64,000 nucleotides of DNA from assembly GCF_023638035.1 (NCBI RefSeq), contig NZ_JAKRVX010000001.1:248001-312000 (forward strand), written 5' to 3'. This DNA is from Natronocalculus amylovorans. GTDB taxonomy: Archaea > Halobacteriota > Halobacteria > Halobacteriales > Haloferacaceae. The translations under genes and the position numbers were made by a program. This document shows, piece after piece, positions 12,240 to 14,807 of this stretch (within the stretch, counting starts at the first letter, position 1; the number at the start of each line of letters is the position of its first letter). The notes below the pieces were generated by a model. The model did not search any database and was not told the origin of the DNA. It saw nothing but the letters and a program-made list of their open reading frames with translations.

Positions 12240-12428
12240 GAGAGACAAGCAAATATCTCTCCATGTATTTGTGATCACACGAAAGTCCACTCTCCCCGAA
12301 TTGAAGCGTGCAAGACTCACTCTGATCGTCTTGCGGCCTCCCGTTCGCTTCGCTCACGGGAGCGGGGGACAAACCGATCGCTCTTTATTTAAATGGATCA
12401 AGCAAAAGTCCGCTCTCCCCGAATTGAA
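12240..12428. repeat. Diverged tandem copies of the tRNA-Tyr 3' half and flank
   Basis: The 24 bases at 12405-12428 (3' acceptor and T-arm of tRNA-Tyr plus three flanking bases) recur at 12282-12305 with one mismatch (AAAGTCCRCTCTCCCCGAAT followed by TGAA). The adjacent tRNA interior CGGGGGACAAGCCGATC at 12429-12445 recurs with one mismatch at 12363-12379, and more weakly at 12240-12256. The blocks 12240-12305 and 12364-12428 therefore align over about 65 bases. Between them, 12306-12362 carries a small inverted repeat (CTCCCGT ... ACGGGAG). The pattern fits repeated integration and decay at a tRNA att site. No integrase gene remains in the window. Confidence 0.75.
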
Positions 12429-12482
12429 CGGGGGACAAGCCGATCTACAGTCGGCTGCTCTACCAGGCTGAGCTAAGAGCGG
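12409..12482 (-). tRNA. tRNA-Tyr (GTA)
   Basis: Read on the minus strand, a complete cloverleaf is seen. The acceptor CCGCTCT pairs with AGAGCGG, with discriminator A. The D-arm contains AGCTCAGCCTGGTAGAGC. The anticodon stem GCCGA/TCGGC holds loop CTGTAGA, giving anticodon GTA. The T-arm is CCCCG TTCAATT CGGGG. The C1-G72 pair is the archaeal tyrosine identity element. There is no intron, and CCA is not encoded. A TATA-like TTAATTTA (plus strand 12506-12513) sits about 25-30 bases upstream, and a 7-bp inverted repeat (12483-12489 with 12498-12504) lies directly before the 5' end. Confidence 0.96.
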
Positions 12483-12560
12483 TCACCCGATTCTACCCGG
12501 GTGAGTAAATTAAGGGTTGCTATTTGAGCAGATCGTGTCTGCCATGCGTCAGACATACAG

Positions 12561-12595: not shown

Positions 12596-13204
12596 ATGAG
12601 CAAGATCACGTTCCGTGCCGACGACAATCTGGTCGATCGGCTCGACAGCCTTGAGGCCTCTAAAAGCGAGGTGATGCGCGAGGCGCTTCGATCATACCTT
12701 GAGACGATCGAATACGAACGTGACACGCTATCAGACAGCCCATCAACACAGTCACCACATATCGAAGGCGATGACGAATCACTTGATGGATTCCTCTCAA
12801 AACGAATCGACGAACTGATTTCTGAGCGGCTTGCCAAAACGCATCACCGCACGCTTAACGATCGCGGTGTCTCTGACTCACAGCCGATCACGGTGAATGT
12901 GAGACTCGAAGGCCCAACCGGCTCACAAGAAAGCATCTCACAACACTCATCGATCGAACAGAGCGAAACAGTATCAGAAACCCGACGTAAGACACAGCCG
13001 CGTAAGACAGATACACAAACCGCATGTACTCAGTGTGGCGAGTCTGTAATGGATGACCACGTGTACTGCCCAAACTGTGGTGAGAAGGCCTCTAACCGGC
13101 TTTTCTGTGAATGTGGTGACGAAGTTCGATCCGATTGGGCGTTCTGTCCTGGATGTGGAAGACGGACTCCAACTGCAGACGTCCTCGACAAGAGATCGAG
13201 GTAG
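12596..13204 (+). CDS. cdrL: CdrL-like ribbon-helix-helix protein with double zinc ribbon
   Basis: Predicted DNA-binding regulator of 202 residues. Residues 1-40 (ITFRADDNLVDRLDSLEASKSEVMREALRSYL) form a ribbon-helix-helix domain, followed by an acidic, disordered middle. Two zinc ribbons follow, with Cys144/147/158/161 and Cys171/173/184/187. Haloarchaea keep a long RHH gene next to cdrS-ftsZ2, called CdrL (cell division regulator, long), which regulates that operon. The name here rests on this gene order and domain plan. It ends about 210 bases before cdrS, in a region full of palindromic motifs. Two GTAAGACA octamers also lie inside its coding sequence (about 12985 and 13001). Confidence 0.8.
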   Translation: MSKITFRADDNLVDRLDSLEASKSEVMREALRSYLETIEYERDTLSDSPSTQSPHIEGDDESLDGFLSKRIDELISERLAKTHHRTLNDRGVSDSQPITVNVRLEGPTGSQESISQHSSIEQSETVSETRRKTQPRKTDTQTACTQCGESVMDDHVYCPNCGEKASNRLFCECGDEVRSDWAFCPGCGRRTPTADVLDKRSR

Positions 13205-13237: not shown

Positions 13238-13254
13238 GGTGTGTCTTACACACC
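13238..13254. promoter_or_regulatory. Inverted repeat in cdrS-ftsZ2 upstream region
   Basis: GGTGTGT-CTT-ACACACC, a 7-bp perfect inverted repeat around three bases. It contains the GTCTTAC core that recurs at 13296-13313 and 13388-13395, and it sits just upstream of the likely TATA box. Possible CdrS or CdrL operator. Confidence 0.55.
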
Positions 13255-13262
13255 GGCGGTAA

Positions 13263-13271
13263 TTTTATATA
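13263..13271 (+). promoter_or_regulatory. TATA box of cdrS-ftsZ2
   Basis: TTTTATATA lies about 25 bases before the 13296-13313 palindrome. It would place transcription start within that palindrome and give a leader of roughly 115 bases before cdrS. Inferred from the archaeal promoter consensus. Confidence 0.55.
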
Positions 13272-13295
13272 CTCTCGCCAAGACATTACTTTTGC

Positions 13296-13313
13296 GTAAG
13301 ACAATTGTCTTAC
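13296..13313. promoter_or_regulatory. Perfect 18-bp palindrome at predicted cdrS-ftsZ2 transcription start
   Basis: GTAAGACAATTGTCTTAC equals its own reverse complement. It lies about 25-40 bases downstream of the TATA element, the classic place for a repressor to block archaeal RNA polymerase. The half-site GTCTTAC is repeated at 13238-13254 and at 13388-13395, the latter 18 bases before the cdrS ATG. RHH dimers bind such short inverted repeats, so CdrS autoregulation or CdrL control is plausible. Confidence 0.65.
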
Positions 13314-13412
13314 ACCGCGATCCGCCCACAGGGTCCCTACTCCTGTATGTTGGAAGACGGTGTATGACAGAAATCGGTTTTGCCGTCTGTCTTACCGGGG
13401 GAATACACAACT

Positions 13413-13595
13413 ATGGAGCGTGTGACACTACGAATTCCGAAACAGCAGATTGAGGAGGTCGAACAAATGGTCGAAACCGGCCAGTTCCCGAACCGGAGCG
13501 AAGCGATCCGGTCGGCAGTTCGAGAGATGCTTAACGAACAAGACGAGACGGAACCTCACCGTCGTAGTACTGAACGAAGCTGGGCTAAGGTGTAA
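13413..13595 (+). CDS. cdrS: Cell division regulator CdrS (short ribbon-helix-helix protein)
   Basis: A 60-residue RHH protein starting [20 protein letters not shown], with helix residues [16 protein letters not shown]. In other haloarchaea CdrS is a small RHH factor co-transcribed with ftsZ2 that controls cell division genes. The ATG at 13413 is used because the conserved sequence begins there. An upstream in-frame start (13380) would add 11 unrelated residues and lie in the operator region. The stop is 3 bases before the ftsZ2 ATG, so the two are almost certainly one operon. The C-terminal 15 residues are basic and probably disordered. Confidence 0.92.
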
Positions 13596-13598
13596 ACT

Positions 13599-14807
13599 AT
13601 GCAGGATATTGTCCAAGAAGCCCTAGAAAACGCCGAAGCCGAACAGCGTGAAATGGATGCATCAAGCAGTGCAGATGACTTTGGCGATCCTCGGATTGTC
13701 ATAGTCGGCTGTGGTGGTGCAGGAAATAACACGATCAACCGCCTCTACAATATTGGTGTCGATGGTGCGGAAACGGTCGCAATCAACACTGATAAACAAC
13801 ACCTCGAGATGATTGAGGCGGATACGAAGATCCTTGTCGGGAAATCATTGACGAGCGGTCTTGGTGCAGGCGGTGACCCAAGTATGGGTGAGCGTGCAAC
13901 CGAGATGGCACAAGGAACCATTAAAGAGGTTCTTGGTAACGCAGACCTTGTGTTCGTCACCGCAGGAATGGGTGGCGGAACTGGAACCGGTGCCGCACCT
14001 GTTGTTTCAAAGATTGCCAAGGAGCAAGGTGCGATCGTCGTCGGAATGGTCTCTACCCCATTCAACGTCGAGCGTGCACGAACAGTGAAAGCCGAAGAAG
14101 GCCTCGAACAGCTGCGAAATGCAGCAGACTCGATCATTGTCCTTGACAATAACCGGCTGCTTGACTACGTGCCGAACCTACCGATCGGTAAAGCCTTCTC
14201 TGTGATGGATCAGATCATCGCAGAGACGGTCAAAGGAATCTCCGAGACAATCACCCAACCATCGCTCATCAATTTGGACTACGCAGATATGTCCACGATT
14301 ATGAACCAAGGTGGTGTTGCGGTGATGCTCGTTGGCGAAACCCAAGATAAAAACAAGACACAAGAGGTCGTCAACGATGCAATGAACCACCCACTGCTGG
14401 ATGTTGACTACCGTGGTGCATCAGGTGGACTTGTCCACATCACTGGTGGACCTGACCTCACACTCAAAGAGGCAGAAGGAATCGCTCACAACATCACGGA
14501 GCGACTTGAAGCAAGTGCAAACGTGATTTGGGGTGCCCGAATCCAGGATGAGTACAAAGGAAAAGTCCGTGTGATGGCGATCATGACCGGTGTCCAGAGT
14601 GCACAGGTGCTTGGCCCAACGACGCAGAAACAGGCTGACAAATCCCGTGCAAGCATCAATGGTGGCTCCGAGTTCGAATACGAAGGCAGTCAGAACCGAA
14701 GCCGAAACCAAAGGCAGTCAGAAACGACTCCAAACACAAACTCATGGCAGTCCGACGGCGGACGAGACGAGCTCGAAAAGAACAACGGGCTTGACGTAAT
14801 CCGTTAA
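13599..14807 (+). CDS. ftsZ2: Cell division protein FtsZ2 (tubulin superfamily)
   Basis: GTPase that forms part of the archaeal division ring. In haloarchaea FtsZ1 and FtsZ2 have separate roles and FtsZ2 is needed for constriction. The 402-residue protein has the N-terminal nucleotide loop [14 protein letters not shown] at 36-48, tubulin signature [10 protein letters not shown] at 125-134, and the T7 loop region [16 protein letters not shown] GTPase-activating core is followed by a polar tail from about 345. The last residues NNGLDVIR form a short terminal motif typical of this paralog. Coupling to cdrS supports FtsZ2 rather than FtsZ1 or CetZ. Confidence 0.95.

Follow-up and report, generated by a model that had tools for sequence, protein, structure and literature searches.

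Among the closest described systems is that of CdrL and cdrS/ftsZ2 in Hbt. salinarum, which comprises the same genes and the same promoter as those considered here. ChIP-seq of CdrL in this organism gave a sole reproducible site, a peak upstream of cdrS-ftsZ2 defined at promoter resolution, and CdrL was reported to be absent outside Halobacteria (PMC7439475). The portion of that paper's text consulted here gives no boxes, spacing or start-site geometry. For CdrS, ChIP-seq in Hfx. volcanii identified 18 sites that share a symmetric motif; ftsZ1 and hisB are among them, but the cdrS promoter is not. The protein used in that experiment carried an N-terminal FLAG tag and was expressed from a plasmid promoter (PMC8406309).

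We analyzed a window of 64,000 nucleotides from Natronocalculus amylovorans that contains the corresponding genes. cdrL (12596..13204, plus strand) encodes an RHH_1 domain and a double zinc ribbon (PF01402 and PF12773 above cut-off; PF24252, CdrL_M, below cut-off). Downstream are cdrS (13413..13595, plus strand, ATG at 13413), which encodes an RHH_1 regulator with the N-terminus MERVTLRIP, and ftsZ2 (13599..14807, plus strand; PF00091, PF12327). RHH_1 is above the curated cut-off in both CdrL and CdrS, in agreement with a preliminary description in which an operator array is flanked by two RHH regulators. Box 1, GTCTTAC (13243..13249), starts 21 bp upstream of TTTATATA and is contained within a GGTGTGT-CTT-ACACACC repeat (13238-13254); the TATA box, TTTTATATA, is at 13263..13271 on the plus strand, with the first T of TTTATATA at 13264. 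Box pair 2, GTAAGACAATTGTCTTAC (13296..13313, that is, GTAAGAC-AATT-GTCTTAC with boxes at 13296 and 13307), falls at the predicted transcription start, and downstream of it lies box 3, the variant GTATGAC (13362..13368). Box 4, GTCTTAC (13389..13395, within TGTCTTAC at 13388-13395), directly precedes an SD-like GGGGG (13397-13401).

The repeat, the 18-mer, the start-proximal box and the TATA box between the first two elements all lie where the preliminary description had put them. Its three GTCTTAC sites before cdrS are all present, but the list was incomplete: in addition to the variant at 13362 it had missed two GTAAGAC boxes within CdrL R-K-T codons (12987..12993 and 13002..13008) and a pair at the cdrL promoter (12537..12554; GTCTGCC-atgc-GTCAGAC), in which symmetric boxes are 11 bp apart and the first has 1 mismatch. 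Further upstream, 12273-12305 and 12396-12428 form a 33-nt direct repeat (88%) that takes in the end of a tRNA-Tyr gene (12408-12482, minus strand). This repeat beside cdrL is possibly the trace of an integration event; that integration next to cdrL is a route to cdrL loss in other genomes is only a guess.

Counting both strands, GTCTTAC occurs 11 times in the window (4.4 +/- 1.8 expected; none of 100 shuffles has as many), and four of these copies are in the cdrL-cdrS gap of ~210 bp. The 18-mer pair is a single copy in the organism's own genome, where the closest other sites carry 3 mismatches. Two other dyads from this genome are recorded here: the hybrid GTAAGACAGTCGTCTGAC (G000:C12:468685-468702), which has a carB-like frame a few hundred bp away, is a candidate extra site, and GTGAGACGATCGTCTCAC, of the same shape (G000:C12:499973-499990), overlaps a reading frame.

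Conservation in relatives had been set beforehand as a test, and GTCTTAC boxes were found upstream of cdrS in all 181 non-redundant clusters of Halobacteria. Each 250-bp upstream region contains 2-6 exact boxes; shuffled copies contain 0 (175 clusters) or 1 (6 clusters), and none occurs within 170 bp of coding sequence from cdrS in any of the 181 clusters. The pair GTAAGAC-N4-GTCTTAC is present in 309 of 391 Halobacteria genomes, as one copy in 308 and as two in the remaining genome (G239), against 1 of 391 for the reversed-pattern control. The exceptions that were sampled mostly contain the same boxes with a spacer of 2, 3, 5 or 6 bp instead of 4. Across the clusters the spacer is 4 bp in 125, 5 in 38, 2 in 6, 6 in 3 and 3 in 1; these 173 clusters, defined by an exact pair at a spacer of 2-6 bp, are the denominator below, and in the 8 further clusters a box is damaged. 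Spacer length is clade-specific, the boxes being unchanged. When spacers of 2-5 bp are allowed, the pair is found in 31 of 33 Halobacteria versus 1 of 164 genomes from the rest of the phylum, and this sole match (G440) lies at a distance from the cdrS of that genome.

Counted downstream from the first T of TTTATA, the pair begins at exactly 32 bp in 112 of the 173 clusters and at 31-34 bp in 151. Given the usual archaeal TATA-to-start distance, it would lie at about the transcription start; the earlier placement of the array over the predicted start accords with a core pair 32 bp past TATA whose phase is kept across clusters. A box upstream of TATA (GTCWTAC/GTAWGAC) is present in 156 of 173 clusters, box 3 (GTAWGAC) downstream of the pair in 106 and box 4 in 163. 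The orientation of box 1 varies by clade (GTCTTAC or GTAAGAC), and either A or T may stand at its center; the unit is therefore a 7-bp box read either way. An RHH operator is expected to consist of short boxes, repeated or inverted, with a fixed spacing, and here the boxes are 7 bp long with a dominant spacing of 11 bp.

Two larger units were entertained and rejected. The perfect 18-bp palindrome of the preliminary description does exist and is unique in the genome, but palindromy is not conserved: the window's pair is perfectly palindromic because its spacer is AATT, a spacer found in only 2 of 173 clusters, while GGTC is found in 69. The 17-bp GGTGTGT/ACACACC inverted repeat is likewise present at 13238-13254 but is not conserved across clusters. 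The unit is the 7-bp box, and perfect 18-bp palindromy is incidental.

A sister box, GTCWGAC, is found at CdrS targets. In one Haloferax genome (G556) GTCAGAC-N4-GTCTGAC occurs with zero mismatches only twice, before ftsZ1 and before hisB, and all 14 genomes examined have an 11-bp-spaced GTCWGAC pair (each box with at most 1 mismatch) upstream of ftsZ1. These sites and the cdrS pair have the same 7+4+7 architecture and differ at one box position (GTCWTAC versus GTCWGAC). We propose that GTCWGAC is the box behind the CdrS regulon, its match to the published motif being judged from two targets, ftsZ1 and hisB. The ftsZ1 pair ends about as far upstream of TATA as does box 1 at cdrS, a position that fits the published activation of ftsZ1 by CdrS. 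The idea that spacing at ftsZ1 co-varies with spacing at cdrS was rejected: two genomes (G005, G036) have N5 at cdrS and N4 at ftsZ1. A looser genome-wide scan for CdrS targets (2 mismatches) returned 16-25 matches per genome versus 3-7 in controls, and is mostly uninterpretable beyond ftsZ1, hisB and cdrS. Weaker box pairs (2 mismatches) kept in two Haloferax genomes were seen before a small protein that has no Pfam match (L370, L378) and between divergent DUF6432/DUF7093 genes (L366, L379).

The sister box is also found at cdrL and beyond Halobacteria. At 164 cdrL promoters there are 156 exact boxes (7.9 in shuffles), mostly GTCWGAC, and a spacing of 11 was counted 88 times (0.8 in shuffles). 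A search for GTCTTAC at non-haloarchaeal cdrS promoters found almost none; instead, the leaders (40 loci, 37 clusters) contain tandem GTCWGAC boxes with spacings of 11, 22, 33 and 44 counted 47, 59, 43 and 25 times, respectively, against at most 0.06 in shuffles, the box having been defined by eye from these promoters and then counted with shuffles as the control. All 181 Halobacteria clusters share the same nine N-terminal residues of CdrS, and those outside Halobacteria are similar, M(E/D/Q/K/R)R(I/V)T(I/L)R(L/I)P.

The boxes inside cdrL leave a mark on codon choice. The tripeptide RKT is spelled CGT-AAG/AAA-ACA/ACG: CGT encodes the arginine every time (121 of 121; 19% usage in CdrL overall), and threonine is always ACA/ACG and never ACC/ACT (0 of 121, versus 38% overall). 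In 111 of 121 cases the codons spell CGTAAGAC. Because the clusters are related, these cases cannot be treated as independent, but their bias suggests selection acting on the DNA itself, and the codons locked to CGTAAGAC(A/G) across Halobacteria are likely binding boxes hidden in coding sequence.

Which protein reads the boxes can be approached through genomes that lack CdrL. Searches of 14 non-Halobacteria genomes gave no CdrL match in 9 and zinc-ribbon matches only in the other 5. Within Halobacteria CdrL is detected (E<=1e-10) in 376 of 391 genomes. Three of the remaining 15 also have no cdrS match; the other 12 keep the box pair, ten as the exact N4 pair and two (G026, G311) with a 5-bp spacer. 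These 12 cdrS-bearing genomes without a detectable match contrast with the statement that CdrL is present in all sequenced Halobacteria (PMC7439475). With two less complete assemblies (G182, G353) set aside, the CdrL-less set is ten genomes from six genera (g6, g24, g25, g39, g53, g62), which represent at least five clearly separate losses, and at six CdrL-less loci no CdrL frame was seen in the DNA upstream of cdrS. Between two CdrL-less sister species (g6) the box bases are identical at 35 of 35 positions, compared with 139 of 197 for other bases. Since the boxes are kept and constrained without CdrL, a reader other than CdrL is likely, and CdrS is the simplest choice. The 11-bp box geometry, shared with the ChIP targets of CdrS and with the cdrS leaders of archaea reported to lack CdrL, also speaks for a role of CdrS. 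A connection between box 1 and the presence of CdrL was considered and rejected, there being a genome with CdrL and no box 1 (G346) and CdrL-less genomes with it (G137, G281).

These losses bear directly on the possibility that GTCTTAC is read by CdrL alone, CdrS reading only GTCWGAC boxes elsewhere. Several observations favor such an arrangement: the one reproducible CdrL ChIP site is the cdrS-ftsZ2 promoter (PMC7439475), matching one exact pair per genome; the cdrS promoter is missing from the CdrS sites (PMC8406309); and the great majority of genomes have a detectable CdrL. CdrS need not bind the cdrS boxes, because GTCWTAC differs from GTCWGAC at one position. Against it are the lineages, represented by high-completeness genomes, that have boxes but no detectable CdrL, and the strong constraint on boxes between two CdrL-less species. 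Persistence of the boxes without CdrL weakens the claim that CdrL is the only reader, not the claim that CdrL binds where present, and we regard exclusive reading by CdrL as unlikely. The DNA-reading strand of RHH proteins is N-terminal; an N-terminal FLAG adjoining this strand, together with plasmid expression, may have hidden some CdrS sites. A different conserved regulator, with the RHH proteins merely its neighbors, is very unlikely: GTCTTAC is not named in the consulted text of PMC7439475 or PMC8406309 and no direct footprint was found, but CdrL ChIP falls on the cdrS-ftsZ2 promoter (PMC7439475), and related boxes are present both at the targets identified by CdrS ChIP and upstream of cdrS in other archaea.

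Two further readings set regulatory proteins aside. That the boxes are a chance or low-complexity repeat without function is refuted because they are conserved; conservation across genomes, the window count relative to shuffles, the fixed TATA phase and the 11-bp lattice outside Halobacteria leave this view with virtually no weight. The boxes might instead act mainly as RNA, the pair and boxes 3 and 4 forming 5′-leader hairpins that govern translation or the stability of the mRNA. In favor of this, transcription covers most of the boxes, the leader has a modest folding advantage over shuffles (z -2.0), a fully complementary partner for box 4 exists in 111 of 163 clusters, and post-transcriptional control of the operon has been suggested (PMC8303175). 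However, box 1 is upstream of TATA and flips orientation, full pairing is absent in 52 of the 163 box-4 clusters, cdrL codons contain identical boxes, and at ftsZ1 related boxes lie upstream of TATA. Moreover, neither the 8 exception clusters inspected nor the box-4 partner counts gave evidence of compensatory stem changes: in the 8 clusters without an exact pair, changes in one box are mostly uncompensated in the other. An RNA role as the main function is highly improbable.

We therefore favor, with reasonable though far from complete confidence, a multi-box RHH operator of the cdrS-ftsZ2 operon, with CdrL and most likely CdrS as its readers and feedback on dose as its outcome. One RHH dimer would occupy each 7-bp box (Y-GTCWTAC-R, read in either direction), and at a separation of 11 bp, roughly a single helical turn, two boxes would hold two dimers side by side. 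Protein bound to the core pair at the transcription start would block initiation. Box 1 occupies the place where haloarchaeal activators bind; just upstream of TATA/BRE, like the CdrS site at ftsZ1, it may activate or help to hold the complex, and boxes 3 and 4 would extend the operator through the leader to the Shine-Dalgarno. The resulting feedback circuit would set the dose of CdrS and FtsZ2. Repression as the sign of control at the cdrS promoter, which the preliminary description had suggested as autorepression, we infer solely from box position; the effect of CdrS on ftsZ2 reported for Hbt. salinarum is activation rather than repression.

The operator is probably descended from ancient CdrS autoregulation, as what looks like a modified copy of an older operator of symmetric GTCWGAC boxes. 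Such boxes are still present at the cdrS promoters of other archaea, and haloarchaeal ftsZ1, hisB and cdrL retain the symmetric form. A more speculative extension, which we think is probably wrong, is that CdrS homodimers ancestrally occupied an 11-bp GTC-W-GAC lattice and that Halobacteria converted the boxes to a hybrid GTC-W-TAC, one GTC half plus one GTA half, for a CdrS-CdrL heterodimer. If this hand-over took place, CdrL would gate cdrS-ftsZ2 alone, and CdrS homodimers would keep ftsZ1, cdrL and other targets.

The boxes provide base-level candidate binding sites for a switch controlling FtsZ2 dose in archaea, and a possible reason for CdrL's single ChIP site. They also describe a division regulator whose operator can be traced from methanogen-type archaea to haloarchaea, and reduce the question of how archaeal FtsZ dosage is set to a small set of point mutations. 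Among known RHH systems the array resembles the operators of MetJ and Arc, in which short boxes are repeated, each binds one RHH dimer and neighbors are cooperative; MetJ boxes recur every 8 bp, and the 11-bp spacing at cdrS is closer to Arc. Unlike these operators, the cdrS array sits on an archaeal TATA promoter. NikR, also an RHH protein with 6-7-bp half-sites, recognizes GTATGA-N16-TCATAC (PMC7055735), and GTATGA is contained in the GTATGAC variant; however, NikR is a nickel-responsive tetramer with half-sites 22 bp apart, whereas here there are many boxes with an 11-bp core spacing, and CdrS has no metal domain. The CdrS sites of Hfx. volcanii (PMC8406309) are comparable in having a symmetric motif, with 11-bp-spaced GTCWGAC pairs at ftsZ1 and hisB; in contrast to these sites, the cdrS boxes are the asymmetric GTCWTAC, and the cdrS pair lies downstream, rather than upstream, of TATA.
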